A stretch of DNA of 22,740 bases. Origin: a virus. Where the stretch lies: positions 1-22,740 of IMG/VR virus record IMGVR_UViG_3300044912_000138; one strand, given 5' to 3'. The translations under genes were made by a program, and so were the position numbers. Below are positions 1-22,740 of this stretch, piece after piece. The stretch's first letter is position 1. The number at the start of each line of letters is the position of its first letter. The notes below the pieces were generated by a model that was not told the origin of the DNA, did no database searches, and was given only the letters and a program-made list of their open reading frames with translations.

Positions 1-80
1 GGAAATCCATTGTGGGCACACGTTTGTTGTTGTTTGGAAATGGGTTTTGATTATTTTTGTTGTTTCACAATGGATTTTCC
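1..80. repeat. Inverted repeat at the left window edge
   Basis: Positions 1-14 (ggaaatccattgtg) and 66-80 (cacaatggattttcc) are reverse complements except for one extra T in the right arm. They enclose about 51 bases of T-rich DNA. The left arm may continue outside the window. The spacer carries no convincing gene. The structure could be a folded RNA, a protein-binding site or part of an origin, but the sequence does not say which. Confidence 0.5.
30..59 (+). promoter_or_regulatory. Promoter-like element, Bacteroidota consensus
   Basis: TTG at 30-32 is followed by exactly 19 bases and then TATTTTTG at 52-59, which fits the Bacteroidota TTG-N19-TAnnTTTG promoter. TTG and T-runs are very common here, so chance agreement is possible. 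A transcript starting near position 65 would meet the strong terminator at 98-127 after only about 60 bases. Confidence 0.35.
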
Positions 81-127
81 GTTTTGGATTTGCGTTTAAA
101 ACACCGGGTGGTTCCGGTGTTTTTTTT
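65..127 (+). ncRNA. Candidate short RNA or attenuated leader
   Basis: The interval lies between a consensus-spaced promoter-like element (30-59) and a strong intrinsic terminator (98-127), so a transcript of about 60 nt is predicted. It begins with the right arm of the edge inverted repeat. It also contains a nine-codon reading frame (ATG at 70, stop TAA at 97-99) that ends inside the terminator stem, which would suit a leader peptide. Alternatively the terminator simply ends a transcript coming from left of the window. The evidence is only the arrangement of signals. Confidence 0.25.
98..127 (+). terminator. Strong intrinsic terminator
   Basis: A perfect 10-bp stem pairs 98-107 with 114-123 around a six-base loop and leads into eight T residues (120-127). 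It isolates the downstream gene from upstream transcription, which fits the separate promoter at 192-221. Confidence 0.8.
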
Positions 128-191
128 GCGTTGATTTTCAATCAATTGCATCACCTCAACAAATAAAACAACAAAAAAAATCAATCGAATG

Positions 192-221
192 TTGTTGGTG
201 TGAAAAACGTTTGTATGTTTG
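192..221 (+). promoter_or_regulatory. Promoter of the first early gene
   Basis: TTG at 192-194, a 19-base spacer and TATGTTTG at 214-221 match the Bacteroidota consensus exactly. The ATG of the first gene follows at 250. An inverted repeat, TGTTTG-T-CAAACA at 216-228, overlaps the -7 element and the expected start site and is a candidate operator. Confidence 0.7.
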
Positions 222-228
222 TCAAACA
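216..228. promoter_or_regulatory. Candidate operator over promoter 192-221
   Basis: TGTTTG-T-CAAACA is a perfect 13-base inverted repeat with a one-base centre. It covers the end of the -7 element and the presumed transcription start, which is where a repressor would block initiation. Related CAAACA/TGTTTG repeats sit at the two other recognised promoters. Confidence 0.4.
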
Positions 229-249
229 AAACGCAAACAAAAAAACACC

Positions 250-822
250 ATGAAAACGCAAAATTCAACAATCGATTCACAATCAACAACAACCAACAAC
301 AATTCAACCATTTGGATTCAATGGGGTGATGAACAAAAAATTGTTGCCCAATTCAAAACAATTGATGAATTGGTTTCGGCCGGTTACGTTGCAAAATATG
401 CATCAAATTTTGGATATGAACATTTGGTTGATCGTTCATTGAAAAATTGGGCCAATGTTCAAATCCACGATGTTTTTGTTACATCGGCAAATCCGGTTTT
501 CAATTATGGTTTGGATTTCAATATTTGGATTCATTACACGGTTGATGGAATCAATTTCATGAAACAATTGAACATTGGTTCGGCATCATTAACATCGGCA
601 CCATTGCAACGTGTTATGTTGAACATTGCATTGCCGGCCGGATTGGATTTGAACAACCTTGAAAACAATTCACCGGAAATCATGGCCGAATGGGCATCAA
701 ACATCAAAAACAATGTTTATTCATCATTCGATTTTTCAACGAATGCATTTTATAAAAAGGATTCACAATTCCGTTCACAATTGCGTGAATTGTGCACCAA
801 ACACAATTTCATTTTTGCATAA
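250..822 (+). CDS. Hypothetical early protein, 190 aa
   Basis: I do not recognise this protein. An in-frame ATG at 211 lies inside the promoter (-7 element 214-221), so the usable start is 250, which follows an AAACGCAAAC leader by 11 bases. The first 25 residues are rich in Ser, Thr, Asn and Gln and look disordered. The rest is a mixed alpha/beta soluble protein with many aromatics (for example IWIQWGDEQ near residue 22 and FNIWIHYTVDG near 92). There is no signal peptide or membrane segment. It is the first gene after its own consensus promoter and is followed directly by an intrinsic terminator, so it is expressed as a single-gene unit. Such a position is typical of immediate-early takeover or anti-defence genes, but that is only inference. 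Confidence 0.8.
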   Translation: MKTQNSTIDSQSTTTNNNSTIWIQWGDEQKIVAQFKTIDELVSAGYVAKYASNFGYEHLVDRSLKNWANVQIHDVFVTSANPVFNYGLDFNIWIHYTVDGINFMKQLNIGSASLTSAPLQRVMLNIALPAGLDLNNLENNSPEIMAEWASNIKNNVYSSFDFSTNAFYKKDSQFRSQLRELCTKHNFIFA

Positions 823-829
823 TCATCCC

Positions 830-853
830 GGCCCGGGAAACCGGGCCATTTTT
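830..853 (+). terminator. Intrinsic terminator, GGCCCGG hairpin copy 1
   Basis: GGCCCGG (830-836) pairs with CCGGGCC (841-847) around a GAAA loop, followed by A and five T residues (849-853). It lies eight bases after the stop of the first gene. The same stem recurs at 1163-1182 and 1720-1739. Confidence 0.8.
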
Positions 854-885
854 CACTTATAAGTTAAACGCAAAACCAAATCATC

Positions 886-1155: not shown

Positions 1156-1162
1156 TCAAACC

Positions 1163-1193
1163 GGCCCGGTTTCGGCCGGGCCATATAATTTTG
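1163..1193 (+). terminator. Terminator hairpin, GGCCCGG copy 2
   Basis: GGCCCGG (1163-1169) pairs with CCGGGCC (1176-1182) around a TTTCGG loop, identical to the copy at 1720-1739. The trailing T tract is interrupted (ATATAATTTTG), so termination may be partial. A TAATTTTG box at 1186-1193 could double as a -7 element for the next gene, but no TTG lies 19 bases upstream of it. Confidence 0.6.
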
Positions 1194-3174: not shown

Positions 3175-3196
3175 CAAAAACGCAAAAAACAAAACC

Positions 3197-4255
3197 ATGA
3201 AAAACATTGAGAAAACGGCACCGGATTATGGTGCCGATGTGGAAAAAATCACAAAATATTTGGAAACGATGGGGTTGGCCAACAATCTAACCAAATCGGA
3301 GGTTGAACAATTCATTGAAATTGCCCAAGGGTTTCAATTAAATCCATTCAAACGTGAAATTTATGCCAATAAATACGGTGATAAATTTTCGGTTATCGTT
3401 GGATTTGAAACGTACATCAAACGGGCCGAACGTTCCGGTTTGTTAAACGGTTGGCATGTTCGAATTCATGGATCGATCAATCAACAAAACGTGATGCATT
3501 CGGATTTGAGGGCCGAAATTATCATCCACCGGCGTGATTTTGAACATCCATTTGTTCATGATGTATATTACATTGAATATGTTGGCCGGAAACGTGATGG
3601 ATCAATCACCGAATTTTGGCGAAACAAGCCCATCACGATGATTAAAAAGGTTGCAATGGCCCAAGGGTTCCGATTATGTTTTTCGGATGAATTGGGAGGC
3701 ATGCCATACACATCGGAGGAATTGGCGGCAATGGATGTTGATGCCGTTGTTGTTGAAACAAAAGTTCGAAAACCAAAATCGGTGAATCAACAACCAAATG
3801 TGGATGATACGATCCGGATTCGAACATTGTTGGACGGCATCCGGGAAATAAGTGATTTGGATGAATTGGTTGCCGTTTGGAATGCAAACCCGGATTTGCA
3901 CAATTTGCCAATGTTCAAAAATGGTTTAACAACCCGGAAAACGGAATTGGCAAAATTGGATGCCGAACGTAAACACAAACAAAGGATTGAGGATATTAAA
4001 ACGCAAATCGATAAAACCGATGATGTTTCCGAATTGATGAAAATATATTCAAACAACGATGATTTAAAGGGCCAAATTGAAATGATGATTGGATCACGGG
4101 TTGATATTGTTGCATTGTCTAAAATCGAACAATCCGAATCCGTTGAACAAATCATGGATTTAACAATGGAGGAAACCCGGCCGGAAATTTTGGAGGTTGC
4201 CCAAAACAAAATCAATTCATTAACCCAAACAACATTGTTTGATGAAAACGTTTAA
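3197..4255 (+). CDS. recT: RecT/Bet-family single-strand annealing recombinase, 352 aa
   Basis: RecT/Redbeta-type proteins anneal complementary single strands in phage recombination and recombination-dependent replication. The family signature is clear: a helical N-terminus with LTKSEVEQFIEIAQ (31-44), then LNPFKREIY (48-56), VGFETYIKRAERSGLL (68-83) and a conserved C-terminal core KVAMAQGFRLCFSDELGG (151-168). Residues 177-352 form a long helical, charged extension. The protein ends in QTTLF (344-348), a sliding-clamp-binding-like motif. The ATG at 3197 is chosen because the open frame further up (from 3161) contains the promoter box. The AAACGCAAAA leader lies nine bases upstream. No exonuclease partner is evident in the window. 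The last 14 bases overlap the next gene. Confidence 0.93.
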   Translation: MKNIEKTAPDYGADVEKITKYLETMGLANNLTKSEVEQFIEIAQGFQLNPFKREIYANKYGDKFSVIVGFETYIKRAERSGLLNGWHVRIHGSINQQNVMHSDLRAEIIIHRRDFEHPFVHDVYYIEYVGRKRDGSITEFWRNKPITMIKKVAMAQGFRLCFSDELGGMPYTSEELAAMDVDAVVVETKVRKPKSVNQQPNVDDTIRIRTLLDGIREISDLDELVAVWNANPDLHNLPMFKNGLTTRKTELAKLDAERKHKQRIEDIKTQIDKTDDVSELMKIYSNNDDLKGQIEMMIGSRVDIVALSKIEQSESVEQIMDLTMEETRPEILEVAQNKINSLTQTTLFDENV

Positions 4256-4712
4256 AGATATCCAAATTGAGGCCGAAAAATTTGGTTTGATCCAATCCAA
4301 AAAATTTCCCCAATCCAAAAATTTAACGTTTGCAAAATTTGCATCAAACGTTCAACGTGAATTGAAAAAACAATATGGTTCAACCCGGCATTTTTGCCGG
4401 GTTAACCAATTGAATTATTACACCATCACCAATGGTTTGAATTTAAGGTTATCACCGGAATCAACCAATGATGTTTTTCGATGCATTGCCAACATTTTGG
4501 AAACCGAATTCAAAATGGAATGTTCCAATTGCATCACATATTTTGAACGTGAATCAATCCGGATTGGCATTGCCACAAAATTCCGGAACATCAAATCATT
4601 TGTTGAGCAAAACCCACATCACACATATCCATTTGTTCACAATGTGATTTCCGGAAAACGCAAATTGGCCGATGCCCGTTTCATCAAATTGTTCAACGAT
4701 GTTGTGAAATGA
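4242..4712 (+). CDS. Putative DNA-binding protein with two HTH-like segments, 156 aa
   Basis: The gene overlaps the end of recT by 14 bases in another frame. The product is basic and soluble. Two segments look like helix-turn-helix units of the Xre/Cro type: STRHFCRVNQLNYYTITNGLN in the middle (about residues 47-67) and a C-terminal block with HTYPFVHNVISGKRKLADARF (about 125-145), where the N-V-I-S-G-K-R-K pattern is typical of a recognition helix and turn. I infer a sequence-specific DNA-binding protein, possibly a regulator of the early promoters or a replication accessory protein. No catalytic motif is visible. A strong hairpin lies within the gene (4382-4403). Confidence 0.6.
   Translation: MKTFKDIQIEAEKFGLIQSKKFPQSKNLTFAKFASNVQRELKKQYGSTRHFCRVNQLNYYTITNGLNLRLSPESTNDVFRCIANILETEFKMECSNCITYFERESIRIGIATKFRNIKSFVEQNPHHTYPFVHNVISGKRKLADARFIKLFNDVVK
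4382..4403 (+). other. Perfect hairpin inside a coding region
   Basis: AACCCGGCA (4382-4390) pairs with TGCCGGGTT (4395-4403) around a four-T loop, giving nine perfect base pairs inside the gene at 4242-4712. It has no following T tract, so it is not a standard terminator. It could slow ribosomes or stabilise the mRNA, or be coincidental. Confidence 0.5.
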
Positions 4713-5503
4713 AAACACCAAAAAATTCATCGGAACGTTTACCATCGTTTCAATTTTATCCCGGTGATTGGTTAACCGATACATCATTGCGGATGTGTTC
4801 ACCGGAAACCCGTGGTGTTTGGATTGATTTATTGTGCCACATGCACATGGCAAATGAACGTGGTTTTTTGATGGTTTCGGATGTGTTTTTGGATGCAAAA
4901 GGAATCCAAAAGTTATCCAATTTGAATCCAAAAAAATTCCAAAAGGTGTTCCATGAATTGAAACATTTTGGAATCATAAAGGAAAACGAATCCGGGCAAT
5001 TTTATTCAAAACGAATGGTTGGGGATGAACGGTTGCGTAAGGTTCGGAGGGAATCCGGCAAATTGGGAGGAAACCCAAAATTGGTGAAAAAAGGTTCAAA
5101 AAAGGTTGAACATTTGGTTAACCAAAATTCCAACCAAAAACCAACCCTTTCATCTTCATTTTCATTTTCATCTTCATTAAATAACAATAATGATATTATT
5201 GTTGATGAAAATGTTTTTCATCCAATCATTGATCACATCACCAAAAATTGCCCAAACATCAAAAAATTGAAAACCCAATTGAAAATTTCCGATGCCGAAA
5301 AATTGGATGAAACATTCGGGTTCAAAAACGTGATTGAAACATTGGATTCGATGGAAAATTACAAACCATTGATTTCAAAATATTCATCCGTATTTTTAAC
5401 GTGCAAAAAATGGTTATCAAACAAAAACGCAAAACCAAATGGAAACAACATTAACAACCCAAAATCAAAACCAAATTTCGATGATGCGGTTCGTAACTTT
5501 TAA
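4709..5503 (+). CDS. Putative replication initiation protein (DUF1376-like N-terminus), 264 aa
   Basis: The N-terminal 110 residues carry the pattern of DUF1376/phage replisome-organiser winged-helix domains: FYPGDWLTD (16-24), SPETRGVWIDLLCHMH (31-46), then a winged-helix-like stretch with FHELKHFGIIKENESGQFYS (81-100). A Lys-rich segment and a Ser/Asn low-complexity linker (146-162) join it to a C-terminal helical domain. Such two-domain proteins bind the origin and help load the replicative helicase. The position between recT and a loader-like gene supports the call. It overlaps the previous gene by ATGA (4709-4712) and the next by about 23 bases. The linker DNA holds three CT dinucleotides within 27 bases, which is exceptional for this genome. 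Confidence 0.6.
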   Translation: MKTPKNSSERLPSFQFYPGDWLTDTSLRMCSPETRGVWIDLLCHMHMANERGFLMVSDVFLDAKGIQKLSNLNPKKFQKVFHELKHFGIIKENESGQFYSKRMVGDERLRKVRRESGKLGGNPKLVKKGSKKVEHLVNQNSNQKPTLSSSFSFSSSLNNNNDIIVDENVFHPIIDHITKNCPNIKKLKTQLKISDAEKLDETFGFKNVIETLDSMENYKPLISKYSSVFLTCKKWLSNKNAKPNGNNINNPKSKPNFDDAVRNF

Positions 5504-6320: not shown

Positions 6321-6562
6321 AAAACGAACAAATCAATTTCGGCAATGCAATCATCATGATGTTGCAACGTGAGTTCATCCGGGAATGCAAAATTGAACCG
6401 GCAATGGATGAAAACGGAAACCCAAAAACCGATGAAAACGGAAACCCAATCGATCGTGCAATCCATCCGATGAATTTTAATTTTGAAATGTGGATGAAAC
6501 ATCACAAAATCATAATCGAAAAATCCCCAATCATTCAATCACCAATCAAAATCGTAAAATGA
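6317..6562 (+). CDS. Hypothetical protein with DENGNP repeat, 81 aa
   Basis: Not recognised. The gene starts in an ATGA overlap with the previous one and ends in another with ssb. A helical N-terminus (NAIIMMLQREFIREC) is followed by two copies of DENGNP separated by eight residues. These are encoded by identical 18-base stretches at 6407-6424 and 6431-6448. The C-terminus contains NFEMWMKHHKIIIEKS. DENGNP-like turns recall short calcium-binding or linker loops, but two copies are too few for a call. Tight coupling to ssb suggests a replication accessory role. Confidence 0.65.
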   Translation: MKNEQINFGNAIIMMLQREFIRECKIEPAMDENGNPKTDENGNPIDRAIHPMNFNFEMWMKHHKIIIEKSPIIQSPIKIVK

Positions 6563-6888
6563 ACAAAGTATTTTTAATTGGGAACGTTGGTTCCGATGTT
6601 GAATTCAAACAAATCAACACAACAACCGTGTGCAATTTCAACATTGCCGTTACAAAACGAATCAAAAAAAATGATGAACCGGTTGAACAAACAACATGGT
6701 TCCGGATTGCAACATTTGGCAAATTGGCCGAATTGGCCAATAAGTACATCAAAAAAGGGCACAAAGTTCACATTGAGGGTGAAATTGAAATCCGGGAATA
6801 TATTGCAAATGATGGATCAAAACAACGTGCAACAAATATCATTGCCGAAAATTTCATCATGTTAACACCGAAAAACCAAAACCAATGA
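6559..6888 (+). CDS. ssb: Single-stranded DNA-binding protein (SSB), 109 aa
   Basis: A single OB-fold SSB that coats single-stranded DNA during phage replication and recombination. Diagnostic segments are MNKVFLIGNVGSDVEFK at the start, the central TTWFRIATFGKLAELANKYIKKGHKVHIEGEIE-type core (EQTTWFRI through VHIEGEIE, about 48-79) and RATNIIAENFIML near the end. At 109 residues it stops just after the OB fold. The disordered tail and acidic DDDIPF-type tip that recruit partners in cellular SSBs are missing, so it probably acts without that interface. The ATG at 6559 forms an ATGA overlap with the upstream stop; an earlier in-frame ATG (6490) lies deep inside the previous gene and is rejected. 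Clustering with recT is common in phages. Confidence 0.95.
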   Translation: MNKVFLIGNVGSDVEFKQINTTTVCNFNIAVTKRIKKNDEPVEQTTWFRIATFGKLAELANKYIKKGHKVHIEGEIEIREYIANDGSKQRATNIIAENFIMLTPKNQNQ

Positions 6889-7992: not shown

Positions 7993-8484
7993 ATGAAAAA
8001 AAAGGCAAAGCCGGGCACATCATTGAAATATCGTTTATCAAAAACGAAATTGATTTGTGAGGCATACGAAAACGGCAATGTAACGATTGAATCATGTTGT
8101 GGTGAATATGGGATTTCCGTTCGAACGTTCACACAATGGTGTGGTTTGCATTCCGAAATTTCCGAACGTTATAAAAAGGCAAAGGAACAACACAACAAAA
8201 TTGGCAAAGAATCAATCCGGGAAAAATCAATTGATGGTTTAACCCGGTTGATCACCGGATATTGGGTTGATGAAACCGAAACGATGGAAATTTATGGCAA
8301 AACCGGCCAATTGAATGGGAAACGTGTGATGAAAAAACGGCGTTATGTTGGGCCGAATCCAACGGCCGTGATTTTTGCATTGAAAAACACCGATCCGGCA
8401 AATTGGGGTGATCAAATCAATGTTGATGTTTCCGGCGAAAAACAAGTGTTCAAAATTGGGGATCAAATCATCGAATTCAATTAA
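7993..8484 (+). CDS. terS: Terminase small subunit, 163 aa
   Basis: The small terminase binds the phage packaging site and hands DNA to the large subunit. An N-terminal helix-turn-helix is visible (about residues 30-50, IESCCGEYGISVRTFTQW). A charged helical middle (SERYKKAKEQHNKIGKESIREKS in part) probably drives oligomerisation. The C-terminal part contains PTAVIFALKNTDPANWGDQ (121-139); the A-x-FALKN-x-P-x-WGD pattern is typical of small terminase proteins. Length fits the family. Three small genes separate it from the large subunit. Its TAA shares one base with the next ATG (8482-8486). Confidence 0.88.
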   Translation: MKKKAKPGTSLKYRLSKTKLICEAYENGNVTIESCCGEYGISVRTFTQWCGLHSEISERYKKAKEQHNKIGKESIREKSIDGLTRLITGYWVDETETMEIYGKTGQLNGKRVMKKRRYVGPNPTAVIFALKNTDPANWGDQINVDVSGEKQVFKIGDQIIEFN

Positions 8485-8916: not shown

Positions 8917-9164
8917 GGGATGTTTTGATTTGCCGGGGGATTTTTGATTCCATGAACCGGGAACAATTCGAAAAATTGGGGATCTATGTTTCCAATGATC
9001 ATGAAATCATCCCAATGAGGATTGTTTTGGATCAAATCATCACGTGGATCGAATGTGATGATTTCAATGGTGAAAACACAACCATTGTTCATTTGGCAAA
9101 TGGCCGTTCGTTTTGGATCATTGCATCCATCGATGTGATCGATAAAATGATGATGGGATCATGA
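8913..9164 (+). CDS. Hypothetical protein between terminase subunits, 83 aa
   Basis: Not recognised. It is flanked by ATGA overlaps on both sides, the second with the large terminase. Alternating strands and turns (MRDVLICRGIFDS, TTIVHLANGRSFWIIASIDVIDKMMM) suggest a small beta-rich fold. Coupling to the large terminase gene implies production in step with it, but no packaging role can be read from the sequence. Confidence 0.65.
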   Translation: MRDVLICRGIFDSMNREQFEKLGIYVSNDHEIIPMRIVLDQIITWIECDDFNGENTTIVHLANGRSFWIIASIDVIDKMMMGS

Positions 9165-10429
9165 AAATTGCATTTCAACCACATCAAAAACAATTGGAAT
9201 TCATGGATGCCGTGTTTTCATTCAAACACGAATGTTTGATGTTTGGTGGGGCGGCCGGCGGTGGCAAAACATTCGTTTCGTTGGCAACATTGATATCATT
9301 GGCAAAAATATTTCCGAATTCAAAATCACACGTGATTCGTGAATCGTTACCATCGTTGAAACGAACAACCATTCCAACGTTTTTCAAGTTGTGCCCGAAA
9401 TCGTTTATTCGATCATATCATCAAACCGATCACATTGTTACGTTCACCAATGGATCAACATTGGAATTTTTCCCGGAAAATTTCAACATGGATAAAAATT
9501 TAACCCGGTTCGATGGATTGGAAACCAATTTTTTTTTGATTGAGGAATGCCAAGAAATCCAAAAAAAAACGTTTGAAAAATGCAAATTGAGGGTTGGCCG
9601 GCATATCATCCCCAATCAACCACCACGTTTGATTTTGTTAACGTGCAACCCATCACAACAATGGCCCAAAACGGAATTCCATGAACCTGCAATGGATGGG
9701 AAATTAAACCCATCGTATTTCTACAAACGTGCATTGATGATCGACAATCCAACATTGCCGGCCGAATATTTGGCGGCAATGGAAAATTTGGATGATGTAA
9801 CACGGGCCGTTTTCGTGAATGGTGATTGGGATGTTGTGGATGTGGAACGGCCGTTTGCATACGGGTTCAATAAGTTCAAAACCGTGAAACCGGGATTGGA
9901 AATCAAAAAAAACGAACCGATCATTTTATCATTCGATTTCAATGTTGATCCAATCACATGCATTGCCGGCCAATCGTTCGGTGATTCAATCCAAATCATC
10001 CGGGAATTCCGATTGAGGAATTCGGACATTTACCAATTGTGCCAAACCATCCGGGCCGAATTTGGGGATGTGTTTTATTTGGTAACGGGTGATGCATCCG
10101 GTGCCAATCGTTCGGCAATGACAAAGGGCACATTGAATTATTACATGATCATCCGGGATGAATTGGATTTGCCAAAATCGGCGTTCCGGGTTCCATCGGT
10201 TAACCCATCAATCAAAAATTCCCGGGTTTTGCTCAATTCGATTTTGCAAAAACATCCGGATTGCAAAATTGATTCATCGTGCCAATTTTTGATTCACGAT
10301 TTGCAATCGGTTGAAACAACATCATCCGGTGATATTGATAAAACAAGTGATTCAAAATCAACCCATTTGTTGGATTGTTTCCGTTATTATCTTTGGACGT
10401 TTCACAATGATTTCATTCGATTGAAATGA
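9161..10429 (+). CDS. terL: Terminase large subunit (packaging ATPase and nuclease), 422 aa
   Basis: The motor drives DNA into the capsid and cuts the concatemer. The ATPase domain has Walker A GGAAGGGKT (29-37), Walker B FFLIEEC (124-130) and a coupling motif LLTCNPS (159-165). The C-terminal RNase-H-like nuclease shows its three acidic residues in FDFNVDP (Asp259), VTGDASG (Asp311) and HLLDCFRYYLW (Asp405). The length matches the family, and both domains appear intact. It starts in an ATGA overlap. The portal gene, which normally follows closely, lies almost 10 kb downstream after the tail genes. Confidence 0.97.
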   Translation: MKIAFQPHQKQLEFMDAVFSFKHECLMFGGAAGGGKTFVSLATLISLAKIFPNSKSHVIRESLPSLKRTTIPTFFKLCPKSFIRSYHQTDHIVTFTNGSTLEFFPENFNMDKNLTRFDGLETNFFLIEECQEIQKKTFEKCKLRVGRHIIPNQPPRLILLTCNPSQQWPKTEFHEPAMDGKLNPSYFYKRALMIDNPTLPAEYLAAMENLDDVTRAVFVNGDWDVVDVERPFAYGFNKFKTVKPGLEIKKNEPIILSFDFNVDPITCIAGQSFGDSIQIIREFRLRNSDIYQLCQTIRAEFGDVFYLVTGDASGANRSAMTKGTLNYYMIIRDELDLPKSAFRVPSVNPSIKNSRVLLNSILQKHPDCKIDSSCQFLIHDLQSVETTSSGDIDKTSDSKSTHLLDCFRYYLWTFHNDFIRLK

Positions 10430-11197: not shown

Positions 11198-14100
11198 ATG
11201 GCCGATGGTGTGAAAAATGTGTTGTTCCGTTTACAAGCCGATACAACCGGTTTGAAAAGGGAATTGGATGCCGTAAAATCACAATTGCGTGATTTGGGTG
11301 GTGTAACAAAAGGTGCCGAAAATCAATTGGGCGGTTTGAAACGGGCATTAACCGGGGCGGCGGCGGCGTTCGGTGGAATATCGGTTGCATCATCGGCAAT
11401 TGATTTTGGCCGTGGTGCAATCAAAGCGGTTGCCGATTATGAATCGGTGCAAATATCGTTGGAAACGTTTTTGGGTTCGGCCGAAAAGGCAAAGGAGGTG
11501 TTTGCCGAATTGGAGGAATTTTCGATCAAAACACCATTCACACCGGAACAAGTTAACCAAGCCGGCAAAGCATTGTTGGCATTCGGTGAACCGGTGGATC
11601 AATTAACAACATCATTGCAACGAATCGGTGATGTATCATCGGCAACCGGCAAAGATTTCAATGAATTGGCCGTTATTTATGGCAAAGCCCGGGTGCAAGG
11701 AACATTGTTTGCCGAGGATATCAACCAATTAACGGAGGCCGGTGTGCCCGTGATCACCGAATTTGCAAAACAATTTGGGGTTTCGGAATCGGCCGTGAAA
11801 AAATTGGGATCGGAGGGAAAAATCACATTTGCCAATTTGGAACGTGCATTCCAATCGTTAACATCGGAGGGTGGCCGGTTTTTTGGGTTAACCGAAAAAT
11901 TGGCCGGTTCAACGGCCGGCCGGATTTCCACATTAACCGGAAATTTCGAACAATTGAAACGTGATATTGGAACCGGGTTGTTGCCCGTTTTCGAAACGGC
12001 CGTGGATTCGGCGTTCAAATTGATTGATGGATTTCGACAAATCCCGGAATTCATTGAGGAAAACAAAACATCATTGTTGTTGTTGGGTGGTGCCGTTGCA
12101 TTTTATGTTGGGCAACAAAAAACGGCATTGCAAGTTGAATTGATATCCAATGCCCAAAAATTGATTTCGGTTGCCCGGGAACGTGCATTGGCAATTGCCC
12201 GTGGTATTTCAACCGGTGCAACCCGGATTGCAACAACAACCACGTTATTGTTTGGAAATGCATTGCAACGACAAACGGCGGCAACCGGGATTGCAACGGC
12301 GGCATCAAAAACATTCAATGCGGTGATTCGTGCCAACCCATTGGGTTTGATTTTATCGGTTGTTGCAACGGCGGCGGCATTTTTCATCGATTTTGGTGAT
12401 GCCGTGGATGAATCGGCACAATCAACCGAACAATTGTTGAATGCCCAATCGGCATTGGCCGAATCCCAAAAAATAACCAATGCCGAAACGGCAAAGGAAA
12501 TATCGGCATTGGATGAATTGGTTGGTGAAATTAAAAATGCAAACAATGGATCAACCGAACGCAAAAAATTGGTTGATGAATTGAATTCCAAATATGGCAC
12601 AACCATCAAAAACATAAAGGATGAAACCAAATTCATTGCGGCATTGGATGCCGAGTATATCAAATTGGCAACATCCATCAAATCGGCGGCCGAATCGGAG
12701 GCATCCCGGAATGCAATTGTTCGATTAAGTGAACAAAAATTGGGATTGGAACAAACCCAAAAACAATTGGCGGCCGAAAAAACATTGCAAAACCAACGTG
12801 ATGCAAATGTTGCCCGGGAAACCCAACGATTGGAGCAACAACGTAAGGCCGGGCAATTATCATCATCGGATTTCATCGAACAAACGGCGGCATTGGCATC
12901 CGGGAATCGTGCCCGGCGAAATCAAATCGATGAACAAATTGCCCAAAACGAACAATCCATCATTGAAACACAAAATGCAATCGATGAATTGGCATCCAAT
13001 GCCGCAAAATCAACCCGGATCACATCGGATGTGGATGAAAAGGCCGGCAAAGCGGCCGCAAAATTGGCCGAACAACGGCGTGATTTGTTGATCGATTTGA
13101 AAAATGAAATCCGGGATTTGTCGTTGGAGGTTAGGCAACAACCGATTGAGTTATCAAAACCACAATCAACGGAGGATGAAAAAAAACGTGTTTTGGAATT
13201 GGCCAAAATACAATCGGAGGCAATTGATAACACGATCACCGATCGAATTCAAAAGGCCCGGGATGCCGGAACATTAACCGGCGAAATCGAAAAACAATTT
13301 GAGCAAATCCGGAAATTGGAAAAAATCAAATTGGCCAATGATACAAACAACGAAATCACAACCATCGAAACCGATGCCGCAAAAAAACGGCAACAATTGT
13401 TGGCCGAAATCGATCAAATTGATATCGAAACCCAAATTGAAAACGAAACACAATTCACCAATGAATTATTGAACCAACGTGCATTGTTGTTCGAACAATT
13501 TGAAAATGCCAAAAACCAAACCGAAAAACAAAATTTGCGTGATGCATTGGATTCCAATTTGGCCGATGTTCGGGCATCATTGGGTGAACGTGAATCATTG
13601 GAAATTTCGGCAATTGAATCACGGCGTGATGCCGAATTGGCAACCGGTGAATTAACATCGGAGGGCCGTGTTTTACTTGAAAAGGAAACCGATTTGGAAA
13701 TTTTAAAGATTCGACAAGGTTTCAACGATCAATTGGCCCAATTGGATGATGAATTAACCCAATCATCAATTGAGGATTCCAAAAAACGGCGTGATGCAAT
13801 CATCAAAGGAATTGAGGATGTTGCCAAAGCAACATTGCAATTGGCCAATGCCGTGATCGATGCCCAAATTGCACAAACCGATGCCCAAATCACCGGGCAA
13901 CAAAAACGGATCAATGATGCCGCAAAGATTGCCGAAAAGGGGAATGCCGAATTGTTACAAATTGAGGAGGATCGTTTAACCAAATTGAATGAGAAACGGG
14001 CAAAATTCGTTCGTGCCCAACAAGCATTGGCGGCCATTGAATTGGTTGCCAATTCGGCCGTGGCAATATCCAAAGCGGCGGCCGAGGGTGGGGCGGCGGC

Positions 14101-14512
14101 ACCATTCACCATTGCGGCAACATTGATTGCATTGGCGGCCGGTTTGGTTGCGGCCAAAGCCCAAGCCCAATCGGCGGCCGGTTCATTTGCATCCGGTGGT
14201 TACACGGGTGATGGTGGGAAATATGAACCGGCCGGTGTTGTTCACCGTGGTGAATTCGTTATCACCAAAGAAAAAACAAAACGTTTCCGGCCATTGTTGG
14301 AACAAATCCACATGGGCCGAAATCCATTTTTGGTGAATTCAATTTCGGAATCAAACCGATTCAACACATCAACAATGGAAAAACGATTGGAGGGGATTGA
14401 ACGTGCCGTTCGTGAACAAAAGGGATTGAGTTTATCAATTGATGAACGTGGAATCAATGGGATCGTTTCCCGGATTCAATACAAAAACCAACGAATTCGA
14501 AACAAGGCATAA
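11198..14512 (+). CDS. Tail tape measure protein, 1104 aa
   Basis: The tape measure sets tail length and threads the tail tube. Residues 1-50 are a helical start; about 75-265 form the conserved tape-measure domain (SLETFLGSAEKAKEVFAEL, TPEQVNQAGKALLAFG, LFAEDINQLTEAGVPVITEF, STLTGNFEQLKRDIGTGL). Hydrophobic segments lie at about 291-305 and 381-399. A long Glu/Gln/Lys/Ala-rich coiled-coil region runs through the middle. An Ala-rich hydrophobic segment precedes the typical ending ASGGYTGDG to VVHRGEFVI (about 996-1025). At about 0.15 nm per residue it implies a tail of very roughly 165 nm, so a long-tailed siphovirus or myovirus; no sheath gene is visible, which favours siphovirus. No peptidoglycan hydrolase domain is seen. 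Confidence 0.95.
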   Translation: MADGVKNVLFRLQADTTGLKRELDAVKSQLRDLGGVTKGAENQLGGLKRALTGAAAAFGGISVASSAIDFGRGAIKAVADYESVQISLETFLGSAEKAKEVFAELEEFSIKTPFTPEQVNQAGKALLAFGEPVDQLTTSLQRIGDVSSATGKDFNELAVIYGKARVQGTLFAEDINQLTEAGVPVITEFAKQFGVSESAVKKLGSEGKITFANLERAFQSLTSEGGRFFGLTEKLAGSTAGRISTLTGNFEQLKRDIGTGLLPVFETAVDSAFKLIDGFRQIPEFIEENKTSLLLLGGAVAFYVGQQKTALQVELISNAQKLISVARERALAIARGISTGATRIATTTTLLFGNALQRQTAATGIATAASKTFNAVIRANPLGLILSVVATAAAFFIDFGDAVDESAQSTEQLLNAQSALAESQKITNAETAKEISALDELVGEIKNANNGSTERKKLVDELNSKYGTTIKNIKDETKFIAALDAEYIKLATSIKSAAESEASRNAIVRLSEQKLGLEQTQKQLAAEKTLQNQRDANVARETQRLEQQRKAGQLSSSDFIEQTAALASGNRARRNQIDEQIAQNEQSIIETQNAIDELASNAAKSTRITSDVDEKAGKAAAKLAEQRRDLLIDLKNEIRDLSLEVRQQPIELSKPQSTEDEKKRVLELAKIQSEAIDNTITDRIQKARDAGTLTGEIEKQFEQIRKLEKIKLANDTNNEITTIETDAAKKRQQLLAEIDQIDIETQIENETQFTNELLNQRALLFEQFENAKNQTEKQNLRDALDSNLADVRASLGERESLEISAIESRRDAELATGELTSEGRVLLEKETDLEILKIRQGFNDQLAQLDDELTQSSIEDSKKRRDAIIKGIEDVAKATLQLANAVIDAQIAQTDAQITGQQKRINDAAKIAEKGNAELLQIEEDRLTKLNEKRAKFVRAQQALAAIELVANSAVAISKAAAEGGAAAPFTIAATLIALAAGLVAAKAQAQSAAGSFASGGYTGDGGKYEPAGVVHRGEFVITKEKTKRFRPLLEQIHMGRNPFLVNSISESNRFNTSTMEKRLEGIERAVREQKGLSLSIDERGINGIVSRIQYKNQRIRNKA

Positions 14513-14515: not shown

Positions 14516-16282
14516 ATGAATTCATCAATGAAAATCAAAATCAACAACACGTTGATCACCGGCCGTGTTGATGGTGTTTCCAATTTCGAAATAACATTGC
14601 GGCGTGAGGATGATGCCGGCAAAACGGCCCGTTCATTTACATCCGAATTAACGTTTTATGATGATGGATATAATATCATCAAAACACAATTGATTGATGA
14701 TGTTAATGGATTCGGGAAAAAAGTTGATGTGAAAATTTATGATGATTGTTGTTCCGTTCCGGTTTTTGAGGGATATATTCGGGGTGATGCAATCGATTGG
14801 TGTGAACCGGCGTGTTCGGTTACGGCAAACGTGGTTGAAATCGATGATGCATATTCATGCCTTGAATCAATTGTGGTTCGATTAAAAAATTCACCATTTA
14901 TCAATGATCGTGATTATGTTGATGTGCCATATTGCATTGAACACCGGCCAAAATTCGTTCAAATCGTGATTTCGATTTTGTTGGCATTGATTGGGAACAT
15001 CATTTCGTTTGTTTTATTGCCGTTTTTGGTTTTGATTTTGTTGTTATCCGGATTGTTTTTTGTTTTGTGTTCAATCGTTTGTTTTTTGCCATTAACCGAT
15101 TGCACACAATCCGATTGTGATGATGCCCAATTATCACCAACCAACATTTTGGATTCGTTGCAAGATTCGGTGAATGATGTGATTGGTTTTTTTGATACAT
15201 GCAACCGGAAACATCCATCCGGGTTGTTGCGTTCGTACATTTCAACAACATGTGGTTTGTGTGGTTTGAATTTTCAATCCTCAATTTTGAATGATCCGGC
15301 ATCACTTTATTTCAACACGTTGTTGTGGAGTTCACCGGTTGAAAAGGGGATTTTGAATTCGATTCCATCCGGTGGTTTGATTGAGCAAAACAAACCAATC
15401 GAAACATTGCAAACGTTGTTGGATAATGTTTTGAAACCAACATTTAATGGTGATTATCAAATTGTTGGAAACACATTGATTTTTGAACGGCGTGATTTTT
15501 TCCAATCCACAACAACATGGATTGATGCCGAACAAATGTTGAACAATGGCAACATCATTGATAACCAAATATGTTATTCATGGATTGATCGTGAACGATG
15601 GGCATTCGGCCGATTTGAATATTCGATGGATGCATTGGATATCATTGGAAATGAGGCCAAATTAAGATACAACGATATTGTTGAATGGAACATCCCGTTT
15701 AACATCACGCAATCCGGCCAATATCAAAACATTTTGCCGTTATCAATGGCCCGTTTCCGGGGTGATGATGTTGATGGTGAGGGAACCATTTTTGATATTT
15801 TATCATTTTACCAAGGTGGTTTGATCAATGTTTTTTTCTATGGGATTTTTTCCAATGATGAAAACCAAATGATGTTGAACAACCATTGTGGTTTTAACTA
15901 CAAATTGTTGATTTGGGATGGGCAAAACATGGATTCCGGGAAAATCGTTCATCAATTCGATGAATCATTCACCGGTGGCCCGGTGATCGTTGATGGAAAT
16001 ACCATCGATCCGGATGATTTGTTCAATTATCCGTTTTGGTTTAAAGAGGGAAACACAAACAATTTATATTCATTGTTTCATTACATCGATGATCCACGTT
16101 TGCCGGGATCAACACAATTCAATTTCAATTTTTCATTTCCGTTTTCGTGCCAACAATTGGCCGATTTCGATTTCAATAAGGTTGTAAGGTTGCCGAAAAA
16201 CGGTTCAATCGTTTATGGCCGTGTTAAGGAGGTAAAAATCAATTTCATTAACCGAACAATTGCCGTTTCCGGGATTGTATAA
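14516..16282 (+). CDS. Tail protein (distal tail/hub candidate) with internal membrane-like segment, 588 aa
   Basis: It lies three bases after the tape measure gene, where distal tail, hub or baseplate proteins are encoded. The first 110 residues form beta strands (SFTSELTFYDDG, VPVFEGYIRGD), compatible with a tail-hub domain. Residues 147-193 are almost wholly hydrophobic (IVISILLALIG, FVLLPFLVLILLLSGLFFVL), long enough for two membrane helices, and are flanked by Cys-rich stretches. The rest is beta-rich and aromatic. A membrane-like hairpin inside a tail component may take part in envelope penetration, but this is inference. Starts at 14516 or 14528 are both possible. I do not recognise a named family. 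Confidence 0.65.
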   Translation: MNSSMKIKINNTLITGRVDGVSNFEITLRREDDAGKTARSFTSELTFYDDGYNIIKTQLIDDVNGFGKKVDVKIYDDCCSVPVFEGYIRGDAIDWCEPACSVTANVVEIDDAYSCLESIVVRLKNSPFINDRDYVDVPYCIEHRPKFVQIVISILLALIGNIISFVLLPFLVLILLLSGLFFVLCSIVCFLPLTDCTQSDCDDAQLSPTNILDSLQDSVNDVIGFFDTCNRKHPSGLLRSYISTTCGLCGLNFQSSILNDPASLYFNTLLWSSPVEKGILNSIPSGGLIEQNKPIETLQTLLDNVLKPTFNGDYQIVGNTLIFERRDFFQSTTTWIDAEQMLNNGNIIDNQICYSWIDRERWAFGRFEYSMDALDIIGNEAKLRYNDIVEWNIPFNITQSGQYQNILPLSMARFRGDDVDGEGTIFDILSFYQGGLINVFFYGIFSNDENQMMLNNHCGFNYKLLIWDGQNMDSGKIVHQFDESFTGGPVIVDGNTIDPDDLFNYPFWFKEGNTNNLYSLFHYIDDPRLPGSTQFNFNFSFPFSCQQLADFDFNKVVRLPKNGSIVYGRVKEVKINFINRTIAVSGIV

Positions 16283-16293
16283 TTTTGTAAAAT

Positions 16294-19125
16294 ATGCCAA
16301 ACCGTTGGGAATTTAACAATTGCATAAGTGAAACCGGAACACCGGGTGCAATTACAAATTTGATTTATCCGGGATGTTGTTGCGAAATCACGTGCATAAT
16401 CACGAACATCAACAATCAAAAAATGAGTTTAACCGGGATCACGGCATCATTTGCGGCCGGTGAATTCACGGTTGTGTTAAATTCAATTCCACCATTGCCG
16501 CAATCATTAAATCCGGGTGATGGTTTTCAATTTACATTAACAATTTGTGCCGATCCGGGGGAGGATTTTGATGTTTTAATAATTGGGATCACATCGGCCG
16601 AACATGGATTGGAAAATCACCAATTTGATTTTGGCCCGGCACCGGCCGGAACGGTTGATGTTTCGGCAATTGATTTTGGAATCGTTCCAATTGGCACAAC
16701 ATCATCACCACAAACAATTTGCATCACATCAAATGCGACATTGTGCCAAACAAAATTCACAATTGATGTTTCCGATTGTGGAATTGGCGTTAAACCATCA
16801 CCAAGTGTTTTGAATGTTGATCCGGGTGGATTGGATACGGATTGCACATTCATCACGTGGGAACCGGAATTTGAATGCCAACAATTGAATTGCACAATAA
16901 ACATTGAAATTTGTGATGGAATCATTATTCCAATCACCGTAACGGGCCAATCAACAAATCGTGATGGTTCACCATGTGCCGGGCCATGTGATGAATGTTT
17001 GTGTTGTGAAAGCATTACCATAATAACCGAATCGGAGGATGCCAAGGCAATGGATGATGTTGTATTAAATTGTAATGATGCAACCATTTTTGATTTGGCG
17101 GCCGTTGGTGAAAAAAAGATTGTTGAATATCAATTCAATTATCCAACCGGGTTATCGGATAACATGGAATTTTATTTCAATCCGTGGTTGTTTTCAAACA
17201 ATTGTGATTTCGGTTCATTATATCCAACCGGTTCCATTAATAATCCACCACCGGTTGCATTTTATTATCAATACAATTCATTGGATTCCGGGCCGCAATC
17301 GATGCCATTGGTTGGGGCCGGCGTGAATGTTTTGAATCAATTGAATTGGGAATGTGAATTTGAATATCTTGGCCCGGATGCATTCAAAATTCGTTTTTCA
17401 TTTTTCATGATCAACGATTTTGATAATTGGATCACCAATTTGTTGCATTCCAATTCACCGAAATGGAGGCGAACGGATGTAAATGCCGTGATTCCGGCAT
17501 TGAATGCCGTTTATCAAAACACATTTCCATCGGTTTACAAAATCAACAAACGGTTGTGTGGTTTGCTTTATTTAATCGATCCAAACACATTGGTTGTTGT
17601 TCCACCAAACACGGTTCCAACACAACCAACACGTTGTTGGAATATCGTTTCGGTTCGATACACGGCCCGTTGGTACAACAAAGGGTTGTATAATGGCCCA
17701 TCCGAATTCATCAACCCGGCATTCGTTTTTGAACGTTCCGGTGTTCCGGTTTTGAATTTGTCAACCATCCAAAAAACGGAGGTAAAATTTTCAATAAACA
17801 TTCCGGTTGGTTTTCATAACAAAACAATTTTTCAATTGTTTGATGAAACCACAACCGATAACACCGTTGATTTTTTATCGAATTATGATTCATCACGGGC
17901 AATAATTACAACCATCCCGGGGATTTCAGTTTTGAACAACAATTTGCAATCACCATCATCAATTGTTTCATTGGGTGGTGGTAATTACGAAATCACGGCA
18001 TACATTGGAACCAATGTTGTGATGGGGCATCAATATCGAATCATGGCCATTGTTTATTCAACGGTGAACATGGTTAACACATTCATTTCCGATCCTTTGT
18101 TGGTTACCAATACACCAACATTTAGTTGTGAGGAATGCCAACCGGATGTTGATTCAACATGGAAACAATATTATTTGGATTCAACCGGTGATTGCATCCG
18201 GCCCGTGGCAAAGGAACGATTAATGCATCAAACAACATGGAATGTTGGGGATTTGAAAACATGCATTTCCGAATGGCCAAATTCAAATGATTGGTTGGAT
18301 TATGTTACCACAATGAGGTTGAACGTTTACAAACGTGCATTGGATTTCCCGGTTGTTGGCCAAACAACATTTTTGATGATCAATCAATTGCAATCATCAC
18401 GTGTTGTTGGTTTCCCGGGAAATTGGAACAACACCACAAATTTGATTGTTTCCGATACCGGCCCGGCATCCGAAATTGAAACATCATTCATTCGGCGTGT
18501 TGGATGGGAACAAACGGCATTCAATCCATCCGATGTTTTCATTGCCAATAATGCAACCTACATGAACCGAACACCGGTTGGGGCATTGGCGGCCGGTTAC
18601 ATTGCAACATTGGGTGCAACCAACGATTGGCGTGATGATGAAATTTATTATGAATACATTTTAACGTTTGATTTCACATCCTTGTTTGGATCACCATATC
18701 AAATCAATTTGGTTAAATCATTCAAGGTGTTGGCAATCCAAAATGAACCGGATAATTCGGGATTTCCACCAATTATTGAATCAATGGTTTTCCAAGGGTT
18801 CAACGGAACATCATGGGTGAACATAACCGGCCCGTTTTGCCCATCCGATTTTCAATCGTTGCGTGTAACATATTGTGCCAACCAATCCGGTGAATTCATA
18901 TTTTTTGCCGAACCATCACCGGATGGAAACCAAATCACAATCCGGGAATCGGAAAACCAACCATCACCAAATGGATTTCCTCAATTGTTGAATGTTGTTT
19001 CGTTGGATTCATCATTCAGTGCCGTTGGTGGTGGTTCATATTGTGCAACGGCAATTTTGGATTCAAATTCGTTGGCAAATGGTTTATATTTGTTATGTGG
19101 ATATTGGAGTGAATCCATTTTGTAA
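16294..19125 (+). CDS. Large Cys-rich tail or adsorption protein with Ig-like domains, 943 aa
   Basis: A long, mainly beta-structured protein in the tail module. The first 240 residues resemble two tandem immunoglobulin-like domains of the HYDIN/ASPM-SPD-2 kind; for example IDFGIVPIGTTSSPQTICI (about 126-144) and VSDCGIGVKPSPSVLNVDPGG show the typical F-G-x-V-x(2)-G-T and C-terminal strand patterns. Cysteines are unusually dense there (CCC at 28-30, CDECLCC near 230-236; about 19 in the first 260 residues). The remainder is rich in aromatics, Asn and Thr, as in receptor-binding or fibre-like proteins. It starts 11 bases after the previous stop and ends two bases before the next gene. Likely part of the tail tip; receptor unknown. 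Confidence 0.6.
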   Translation: MPNRWEFNNCISETGTPGAITNLIYPGCCCEITCIITNINNQKMSLTGITASFAAGEFTVVLNSIPPLPQSLNPGDGFQFTLTICADPGEDFDVLIIGITSAEHGLENHQFDFGPAPAGTVDVSAIDFGIVPIGTTSSPQTICITSNATLCQTKFTIDVSDCGIGVKPSPSVLNVDPGGLDTDCTFITWEPEFECQQLNCTINIEICDGIIIPITVTGQSTNRDGSPCAGPCDECLCCESITIITESEDAKAMDDVVLNCNDATIFDLAAVGEKKIVEYQFNYPTGLSDNMEFYFNPWLFSNNCDFGSLYPTGSINNPPPVAFYYQYNSLDSGPQSMPLVGAGVNVLNQLNWECEFEYLGPDAFKIRFSFFMINDFDNWITNLLHSNSPKWRRTDVNAVIPALNAVYQNTFPSVYKINKRLCGLLYLIDPNTLVVVPPNTVPTQPTRCWNIVSVRYTARWYNKGLYNGPSEFINPAFVFERSGVPVLNLSTIQKTEVKFSINIPVGFHNKTIFQLFDETTTDNTVDFLSNYDSSRAIITTIPGISVLNNNLQSPSSIVSLGGGNYEITAYIGTNVVMGHQYRIMAIVYSTVNMVNTFISDPLLVTNTPTFSCEECQPDVDSTWKQYYLDSTGDCIRPVAKERLMHQTTWNVGDLKTCISEWPNSNDWLDYVTTMRLNVYKRALDFPVVGQTTFLMINQLQSSRVVGFPGNWNNTTNLIVSDTGPASEIETSFIRRVGWEQTAFNPSDVFIANNATYMNRTPVGALAAGYIATLGATNDWRDDEIYYEYILTFDFTSLFGSPYQINLVKSFKVLAIQNEPDNSGFPPIIESMVFQGFNGTSWVNITGPFCPSDFQSLRVTYCANQSGEFIFFAEPSPDGNQITIRESENQPSPNGFPQLLNVVSLDSSFSAVGGGSYCATAILDSNSLANGLYLLCGYWSESIL

Positions 19126-20213: not shown

Positions 20214-20214
20214 A

Positions 20215-22128
20215 ATGATATCGATTGAGGAAATACCATCATTGTTGGCCAATGAACAATATCGGCCCAAAAATTATGAGCATTGGAACCGGGTTCGGGA
20301 TAACATGTTCATCCATACACGTGGAAAAAATCCCGGGGAAATTTTAACCCGGCGGCGGCCAAATGAGGATGAGGATGTGAAAAAATATCGATTATCGATT
20401 TATGAACCAATCACAAAAGGTTCGATGAATCGTGCCATTGATAAATTGTTCCGGATTTTCCAAGGTGCCAATTTTTCAATTTCCGTTTCGGATGAATTGA
20501 ACACATATTTGAGTGAACAAAAATTCGATGGGCAATATTTTTATTCATACATCCAAAAATATGTTGTTCGGAGGATGATCGAAGATCCGAACGGTTATTT
20601 GGTTTGGATTCCCGTTGGTGATGGTTTAATCAACCCGGCAATCAAAGTTGATGTGCAACCGGTGTTGATTATGAGTGATGAAATTAAAATTTTGGATCAT
20701 GGCATCATAACATGGGAATCGGAGGATGAAAAATCAATGGTTCGGGTGAATGGCAAATTGGATCAATCCGGTTCAATTTATTACACATTAACCGATTCCG
20801 GATATTACAAACACATTCAATTCGGGCAAAAACATGATCGGAAATTTGAAACCGTGTTGATTTATGAACACAACATTGGTTCCGTTCCGGCCGTGATTTT
20901 GGGTGGTGATTACACCGATGAAAATTTTTTCGATTCGTATTTTTCGGCATTCATTCCATTTGCCAATGAGGCAATCCGGCAATATTCCGATTGGACGGCG
21001 GTAATGACAACATCGGCGTTCCCATATCGTGAGGAAATGGCCGAAACATGTTCGGCAAAGGGTTGCCGGGATGGTGTTGTTTACAATTCGGAAAACGATG
21101 AACATGAACGTTGTGGCAATTGCAAGGGCACCGGCAAAGTGATTTCACGTTCACCATTCGGTGTTTTCATGCGTGAAAAGGGAAACAATGCAATGGGTGG
21201 TGATAATTCATCCGAACCAATGTTGAGGTTCATATCACCGGCCGTGGATATCATCGAATATTCGGGCAATGCATGGGAAACATTATTAAAAAAGGCCGAA
21301 CAATCATTGCATTTAAACGTGATCGATGAATCACAATCCGGGGTTGCAAAACAAATTGATCGTGAGGATTCGTTTTCCCAATTAACCAAAATTTCGAACA
21401 ACATATTTGATGAAATAATCTACAAATCATTGTTGTTCATTGAGGCATATCGAAACGTGATCGAACCGGTTGCACCGGTGATTGTGAAACCAATTTCATT
21501 TTCGATGAAAACGGAATCGGATTTGATTGCCGAAATCACAACGTTGAGTGATAAAAATGCACCGGTTGCATTTTTGGTTGAATCAACCAAGGATTTGGCC
21601 CGGAAACGTTTTTCCGGCAACAAATCGGTTACACGAATGGTTGAAACATTGGTTTCCTATGATCCATTGTTCAACATCAAAACAACCGATAAACAAATGT
21701 TGTTGGCATCCGGAACAATTCAAAAGGCCGATTTAATCCGTTCATTGTATGCATACAGAACATTAACAAATTTGGTGGCATTGAACGGAACGGAGTTTTT
21801 GGAAAAACCATTGCCGGAATTGTTTTTGGCATTGGATGATGCAATGGCACCGATCATTGAAAAATATGTGCCCAAAACCATCATCAACATCGATGCACCA
21901 ACGGTTGATCCCGAATTCCAACGTACCCAAGCCGAGGCCCAAGCCAATTTGAAAGGATCGGTTGGTGGTGTGCAAGGTATTTTGCAAATTCAACAATCGG
22001 TTGCCAATGGAATAACCGATTTTGCGGCGGCAATTGAATTGTTGAATGTGATTTATGGGATTGATGTGGAAACGGCCCGGAAAATTTTGGGAACACCAAA
22101 ACCGATTGAACCGGGAACAAACGTTTGA
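20215..22128 (+). CDS. Portal protein with zinc-finger-like insertion, 637 aa
   Basis: The portal forms the dodecameric DNA gateway of the capsid and docks the terminase. The order of elements fits phage portals: an N-terminal helical part with YEPITKGSMNRAIDKLFRIF (63-82), wing-like strands, RMIEDPNGYLVWIP (120-133), a stretch with SVPAVILGGDYT (223-234), and a long C-terminal helical part containing GVAKQIDREDSFSQLTKISNN, then an acidic and Gln-rich end. Between them, residues 279-303 carry C-x4-C, 15 residues, then C-x2-C, ending CGNCKGTGK, as in DnaJ-type zinc sites. I recall this insertion in portals of Bacteroidota phages. It starts one base after the previous stop, and its position after the tail genes is unusual. 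Confidence 0.8.
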   Translation: MISIEEIPSLLANEQYRPKNYEHWNRVRDNMFIHTRGKNPGEILTRRRPNEDEDVKKYRLSIYEPITKGSMNRAIDKLFRIFQGANFSISVSDELNTYLSEQKFDGQYFYSYIQKYVVRRMIEDPNGYLVWIPVGDGLINPAIKVDVQPVLIMSDEIKILDHGIITWESEDEKSMVRVNGKLDQSGSIYYTLTDSGYYKHIQFGQKHDRKFETVLIYEHNIGSVPAVILGGDYTDENFFDSYFSAFIPFANEAIRQYSDWTAVMTTSAFPYREEMAETCSAKGCRDGVVYNSENDEHERCGNCKGTGKVISRSPFGVFMREKGNNAMGGDNSSEPMLRFISPAVDIIEYSGNAWETLLKKAEQSLHLNVIDESQSGVAKQIDREDSFSQLTKISNNIFDEIIYKSLLFIEAYRNVIEPVAPVIVKPISFSMKTESDLIAEITTLSDKNAPVAFLVESTKDLARKRFSGNKSVTRMVETLVSYDPLFNIKTTDKQMLLASGTIQKADLIRSLYAYRTLTNLVALNGTEFLEKPLPELFLALDDAMAPIIEKYVPKTIINIDAPTVDPEFQRTQAEAQANLKGSVGGVQGILQIQQSVANGITDFAAAIELLNVIYGIDVETARKILGTPKPIEPGTNV

Positions 22129-22131
22129 TAA

Positions 22132-22740
22132 ATGGCCGAATTCACCGAACAAATAATTGATATCATTGAAAAAAAGGATTCGACAATTTCAACGGCCGAA
22201 TCCAAATTGTTGGATCAATTAGGGCCAACCGAAAAATTGATTTTTGCCGATATCAAAAAATTGATCGACAAATTCAACGTTTCCGGCGGCAAAATTGAAT
22301 TCAATGATTCAAACATTGAATTGGTGAACACCATCAATCAAACAATCGTTGATGCAATCCAAAAATCAAAAATGCCGGCAACCATCCGGGAATTTTTGCG
22401 TGATTTCGATACCATAAAGGAATTCAATGTTGATGTTCATTCCAAATTGAATGGATTATCAAAAAAGGAATTGGAGGATTTAATTAATCCCATCCAACGT
22501 GGTGTTGTGCAACAAACATTGGATGGTTTAACCGGTGCCGGTGTTGATGCCAATTTCATCGAACCGGTTAAACAAGGAATTTACCGAAACATCGTTGGTG
22601 GTGCAACCCGTTCCGATTTGGAAAATTTTTTAACGGCATACGTTGTTGGAACACCGGAATTGAATGGTTTATATTCACGATATGTGAAACAAATTTCCCG
22701 GGATGCATTGGGCCAATTTGATGGGCAAATCAATGCAATC
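22132..22740 (+). CDS. Putative minor head/structural protein, partial (N-terminal 203 aa)
   Basis: The gene begins three bases after the portal stop and runs off the right edge without a stop codon. The visible part is helical and charged: MAEFTEQIIDIIEKKDSTIS, then KLIFADIKKLIDKFNVSGG, a Gln/Asn-rich middle and a segment with YSRYVKQISRDALGQFDGQINA at the end. In many phages the gene directly after the portal encodes a minor head protein (MuF/SPP1 gp7 type). The KQISRDALGQFDGQI stretch resembles the helical part before that domain, but the diagnostic C-terminal region is outside the window, so the call rests on position. Confidence 0.55.
   Translation, partial: MAEFTEQIIDIIEKKDSTISTAESKLLDQLGPTEKLIFADIKKLIDKFNVSGGKIEFNDSNIELVNTINQTIVDAIQKSKMPATIREFLRDFDTIKEFNVDVHSKLNGLSKKELEDLINPIQRGVVQQTLDGLTGAGVDANFIEPVKQGIYRNIVGGATRSDLENFLTAYVVGTPELNGLYSRYVKQISRDALGQFDGQINAI

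Follow-up and report, generated by a model that had tools for sequence, protein, structure and literature searches.

What could drive a phage genome to give up a dinucleotide almost entirely? The question is raised by IMG/VR record IMGVR_UViG_3300044912_000138, whose complete sequence of 22,740 bases is the window analyzed here. Across positions 1..22740 there are 36 CT (odds ratio 0.031) and 240 AG (odds ratio 0.156), resulting in a symmetrized AG/CT odds ratio of 0.102, and the depletion is even along the record, with 0–5 CT in each of 23 kilobase bins. A first-pass annotation, made by reading the sequence, had counted 0 CT and 18 AG in positions 11221–12000, with 17 of the 18 AG forced by a Lys, Gln or Glu codon preceding a codon that starts with G and the last one an AGG Arg codon, and 1 CT and 0 AG in positions 1–249. 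Both counts were exact. The codon skews that it described also recur in our counts: TAG accounts for 0 of 29 stops, Leu is encoded by TTA or TTG 546 times and by CTN 13 times, and, for the two amino acids in which we counted the reportedly avoided NNT codons, Ala uses GCT 0 times and Thr uses ACT once. Gln is encoded by CAA 316 times and by CAG 0 times, and AA/TT is raised. The elimination of AG/CT from the window is confirmed as real, extreme and biological.

When codons are shuffled within each amino acid, leaving the proteins unchanged, the gene set is expected to contain 661 AG and 343 CT; with free synonymous choice, the expectation rises to 1382 AG and 981 CT. The genes in fact contain 231 AG and 34 CT, and the minimum imposed by the proteins is 161 AG and 0 CT. 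Setting the observed counts against this floor and the synonymous null leaves avoidable AG at 5.7% of the null and CT at 3.5% (about 3.5–3.8% for coding-strand CT). Codon junctions are similarly poor (AG 0.12 and CT 0.04 of the shuffle), and so is the noncoding DNA (817 bases; AG 0.06, CT 0.07), where both strands are alike. Because the depletion extends to codon junctions and noncoding bases, the effect lies in the DNA, on both strands, rather than in codon preference; the first-pass annotation had likewise argued that more than codon preference was involved. Nor did the symmetrized odds ratio lie near 1, or the shuffled controls share the depletion, either of which that annotation took as grounds for abandoning the effect. 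The near-absence thus holds against both composition (AG/CT 0.10) and a codon-preserving null, and it is strand-symmetric in coding and noncoding DNA.

What the window avoids is the dinucleotide as such, since no context of 4, 5 or 6 bases is spared. In the window, each of the 48 four-base contexts of CT falls below 0.25 of the synonymous null, and 100% of the expected CT lies in such contexts; among 5- and 6-base contexts, at least 97% of the expected CT lies in those below 0.25, and none exceeds 0.5. Within the window, GAAG and CAG are more strongly avoided than AG generally: where an AG before G is unavoidable, Glu is written GAG 59 times and GAA twice, and Gln is written CAA 22 times and CAG 0 times. 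Other short words are also depleted, including TA (0.29), GAC/GTC (18 vs. 434 expected), CAG/CTG (5 occurrences) and GCG/CGC (0.28).

These further depletions go beyond what the first-pass annotation saw, and so does an alteration of the protein sequences. In the window, amino acid pairs that force an AG (Lys, Glu or Gln followed by Val, Ala, Asp, Glu or Gly) occur at 0.45 of expectation, compared with 1.00 for the same residues in the reverse order and 0.95 for the forcing pairs in G016, a syntenic, AG-normal relative with the same gene order and core genes. Forcing pairs of G016 are gone from the window by many routes, led by Lys to Arg and Glu to Asp and also including Ala to Ser or Thr, Val to Ile, Glu to Lys, and Asp to Asn, so that no one base change can explain their loss. 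A second relative, G001 (L144+L145), avoids both GATC and GAC, and Asp before Pro, His or Gln, which forces one of the two, occurs there at 0.42 of expectation.

Relatives were drawn from IMG/VR via the terminase and capsid, and their genes were called by a simple longest-open-reading-frame scheme that includes some false small frames. The window belongs to an uncultured family of phages. Among bacteria, the closest matches of this family are in Bacteroidota; the capsid occurs in no phage record of the GenBank collection. In three relatives, which carry end repeats of 127 bases, the length is 32.7–33.8 kb, so the window is short of about a third of its genome. Across syntenic relatives, the AG/CT odds ratio ranges from 0.10 to 1.0. 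On the capsid tree, the AG-poor state needs at least 2 changes (5 by parsimony), and the avoidance sets shift across the tree. One lineage (L235–L240 and G036, which is L253+L254) has normal AG and instead lacks CG (odds ratio 0.05–0.10; avoidable CG 0.054), other lineages purge GAG/CTC (0.02–0.1) while keeping AAG, G011, G013 and G014 have lost GAG, CAG and TAG but not AAG, and G012 has lost AG except in AGG. The AG/CT purge is part of a family-wide loss of short DNA words through DNA-level selection.

Several individual relatives show patterns of their own. The CG-less lineage contains 67 CG in 31.5 kb (odds ratio 0.05), and CTAG and ACNGT are absent from it. In L183 and L184/L189 (G039), TA has an odds ratio of 0.16–0.20, GAG/CTC is at about 0.07–0.10 and CTNAG is at 0, with AG only at 0.73–0.85, so a TA purge is possible without an AG purge. 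The non-palindromic 4-bp word CATC/GATG is at 0.00–0.14 of expectation in G002, G018, G003, G005, G017, G021 and L205, where CCGG and GCNNGC are also absent or nearly so. The capsid of L221 falls within an AG-normal clade, yet its contig has GAC at 0.16, CTC at 0.13 and GGCC at 0, possibly through recombination or a host switch. Finally, GAG/CTC is at 0.02 in L228 (G034), record IMGVR_UViG_2788500380_000008, whose identifier is unlike the 33000... form of metagenome records; an isolate or a single cell may be its source, which could open a route to a host.

Ordinary Type II restriction sites are wholly absent from relatives of the window: GATC (0 vs. 185 expected) and ACNGT (0 vs. 88) in G001, CCGG (0 vs. 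153) in G017, CTAG (0 vs. 70) and GGNCC (0 vs. 42) in G016, and GCNNGC (0 vs. 34) in G006. GATC is also missing from two further comparisons in family members (0 vs. 116 and 0 vs. 125), and CTNAG, CCNGG, TTTAAA, ATTAAT and GAATTC are likewise gone from relatives. Over 30 sequences, palindromes were strongly overrepresented among near-absent motifs, at 4 bp (21/414 palindromes vs. 26/6340 non-palindromes), 5 bp gapped (19/435 vs. 6/7000), 6 bp gapped (15/435 vs. 0/7000) and 6 bp ungapped (14/471 vs. 6/21314); these counts are not independent, because the 30 sequences are kin, and independence was assumed in computing expectations for gapped motifs. The manner of loss is visible where the window is aligned with G001 (83% nucleotide identity over aligned genes). 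All 92 of the 92 aligned window GATC sites are altered in G001, to GACC, GATT, GAAC, AATC, GTTC, CATC, GATA and others, whereas eight other palindromes are 36–72% kept. CT behaves alike: between two relatives, only 16–21% of the few remaining CT sites are kept, vs. 48–79% for dinucleotides other than CT and AG, and the replacements include TT, AT, CG, CA, GT and CC. Site changes of so many kinds reflect selection against the sites by any available change.

We consider it reasonably probable that selection by a restriction-type DNA defense of the host, with a specificity of 2–3 bp, left this depletion as its footprint. In this scheme, the host would carry either a system that recognizes the 2-bp AG, or restriction-modification or nicking systems with overlapping 2–3-bp specificities, on top of ordinary Type II systems. 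The window phage would evade them by losing the targets, bringing AG/CT, largely GAC/GTC, CAG and GCG, and partly TA, down near the protein-forced floor and then altering its proteins. Damage that scales with site number, such as nicking or weak cutting, would supply a smooth per-site gradient from about 2,700 sites to 276. The differing avoidance sets of relatives, their zero Type II sites and the varied GATC substitutions favor host DNA restriction over mutation bias, host composition, codon preference and RNA effects. What the defense is, its 2–3-bp reading and its carriage by the host are what we infer from these patterns.

Several points weigh against this proposal. The TA depletion of the window is partial (avoidable ratio 0.29), and we know of no 2-bp restriction target in any bacterium. 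With a double-strand cutter and about 2,700 sites, selection would have no gradient to follow before almost every site had been lost, so the path would need partial or nicking damage, or a methylated escape. Neither a host nor an AG-specific enzyme turned up in host searches and scans of the window genes. The best terminase matches among GTDB genomes have 31–38% identity and are mostly distant Bacteroidota, a capsid profile found distant matches only across 398 genomes of one order, and the window DNA gave short, chance-level matches and no convincing spacer against 395 Bacteroidota genomes. No plasmid or phage record matched the window. In addition, the sites that phages are known to have eliminated are nearly all those of orthodox Type II systems (PMC6286503).

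The same data bear on several other explanations. Many conventional restriction-modification systems, each with a site of at least 4 bp that contains AG or CT, might together mimic a 2-bp specificity, and the exact-zero Type II sites in relatives, the partial AG losses in G011, G013, G014 and G012, and the bias among forced AG in the window (GAGG-type 59 vs. GAAG 2, CAAG 22 vs. CAGG 0), which looks like extra motifs layered on AG, are all in its favor. We nevertheless regard such a composite as unlikely, given that full coverage of the window's 4-, 5- and 6-base contexts would take dozens of systems and that GAG/CTC alone, a 3-bp unit, falls to 0.02–0.09 in other lineages. By context coverage, Type II sites taken together do not suffice to account for the whole effect in the window. 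Alternatively, the phage could itself encode an AG/CT-specific nuclease directed at host or rival DNA, from which the absence of sites would protect its own genome. AG depletion is indeed shared by a large part of the family, in contrast to a patchy avoidance of palindromes, and many small genes have no known family. However, no nuclease family was found in the window and no HNH in 23 family records, no gene is present in 8/8 near-complete AG-poor genomes and absent from 5/5 AG-normal ones, and the loss of Type II palindromes, which proceeds in a like manner, would be left unexplained; a phage nuclease is thus improbable.

The remaining explanations fare less well. Mutational bias without selection, arising for instance from the deamination of a C followed by T or from a biased polymerase, would act genome-wide on coding and noncoding DNA and could raise AA/TT, as observed, but it earns little credence when CT is replaced in so many ways and kept so rarely, when forced pairs are lost through Lys to Arg and Glu to Asp rather than a single transition, and when one mutation type cannot yield exact-zero palindromes. 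Selection at the RNA level, for example by a toxin or RNase that cleaves CU in transcripts, would fit the somewhat lower ratio of coding-strand CT (0.038) than of avoidable AG (0.057). Coding-strand AG is depleted almost equally once forced sites are removed, though, noncoding DNA shows both equally, and relatives have lost palindromic DNA sites, all of which make an RNA effect very improbable. We assign a comparably slight probability to avoidance of AG- or CT-type protospacer-adjacent motifs (PAMs) recognized by hosts with clustered regularly interspaced short palindromic repeats (CRISPR). PAMs have the right size, 2–3 bases, and phages that infect CRISPR hosts have been reported to be depleted in motifs (PMC4246573), but the pressure would be needed at almost every site, the exact-zero palindromes, the CG-less lineage and TA would go unexplained, and the spacer matches in the 395 Bacteroidota genomes were weak and at chance level. 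Lastly, phage composition often resembles the host signature, yet inherited host composition or codon bias is scarcely credible here, because 80 bacterial loci with terminase relatives have AG/CT odds ratios of 0.69–1.28 and close, syntenic phage relatives reach 1.0; the fact that codon junctions and noncoding DNA are affected as well speaks against it. Among the causes listed in the first-pass annotation, then, a host defense recognizing CT/AG is the best-supported branch, and CU in RNA, C-to-T change before T and inherited host bias are disfavored.

Host restriction, as the preferred explanation, has partial precedents. Phage genomes are known to lose the sites of host systems, mostly orthodox Type II (Rusinov et al., 2018; PMC6286503), and the present case resembles those in the passive loss of recognition sites and in the ordinary Type II palindromes wholly gone from relatives. 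It differs in that a dinucleotide is removed everywhere, proteins are altered, and in other lineages CG or 3-mers are the words lost. Avoided sites are typically at least 4 bp long and usually palindromic, as are GATC, CCGG, CTAG and GCNNGC in relatives, and the 2-bp AG/CT of the window is not of this kind; the new element is the shortness of the motif. In chlorella virus NY-2A, M.CviQII methylates AG and Nt.CviQII, for which the name Nt.CviQXI is also used, nicks R/AG (PMC7019647; PMC7248222). Recognition at the level of AG with a cognate cutter therefore exists, and a host AG system would be its analog, although the CviQII enzymes are encoded by a green-algal virus and the system we infer would reside in a bacterial host. 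CAG and TAG are rarer than AAG and GAG in the window, which shows no R/AG preference like that of Nt.CviQII. The first-pass statement that restriction sites offer no explanation for a two-base motif was too strong in view of this published system and the exact-zero Type II sites of relatives. As for CRISPR hosts, the depletion reported in PMC4246573 likewise involves short motifs under a DNA-targeting defense; it concerns PAMs and predicts no exact-zero palindromes. No report of a dinucleotide-purged phage was found in the literature searched, with partial coverage and few subscription papers.

The genes of the window that could be assigned to families encode replication, packaging and structural proteins (Table 1). 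No modification, methyltransferase or nuclease family was found in the window, a record short of about 10 kb of a 32–34 kb genome, and no search aimed at CviQII homologs was made. DNA modification, another cause proposed by the first-pass annotation, accordingly finds no support in the window as a function encoded by the phage, and the phage would escape without a detected protective modification, by having no target. DNA methyltransferases do occur in AG-poor, GATC-lacking relatives: C5 enzymes in G007 (16188–17084, − strand) and G010 (32717–33292, − strand), and an N6/N4 enzyme in G009 (20349–21008, − strand).

Table 1. Window genes with a family assignment, and AG and CT counts for two of them.
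Product	Coordinates	Strand	PHROG	E-value	Remarks
RecT-like single-stranded DNA annealing protein	3194..4255	+	10056	2.8e-39	
Replisome organizer	4709..5503	+	13246	1.1e-7	
Single-strand DNA binding protein	6556..6888	+	44	1.2e-33	
Terminase small subunit	7993..8484	+	309	7.9e-19	
Terminase large subunit	9161..10429	+	979	2.7e-22	Query for relatives; 8 AG, 4 CT
Tail tape measure protein	11198..14512	+	9959	1.4e-68	59 AG (48 protein-forced), 1 CT
Portal protein	20215..22128	+	7376	4.2e-10	

Our results fit best with an avoidance of restriction sites that reaches down to a dinucleotide, and they suggest short-motif host defenses undescribed in these bacteria. A broader claim, to which we give a little less than an even chance, is that hosts in Bacteroidota possess a class of DNA defense, so far undescribed, that reads just 2–3 bases (AG, CG, GAG, GAC and possibly TA), at targets of such density that the family persists by giving up a dinucleotide and rewriting proteins. 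Since the avoided set of each phage would read out the defense specificities of unseen hosts, the family could serve as a natural catalog for restriction or nicking enzymes with 2–3-bp specificity, which would be useful tools, and it supplies natural dinucleotide-poor coding genomes for tests of codon and dinucleotide theory. If this interpretation is true, restriction pressure can make a genome abandon a dinucleotide and reshape its proteins, far past known site avoidance.
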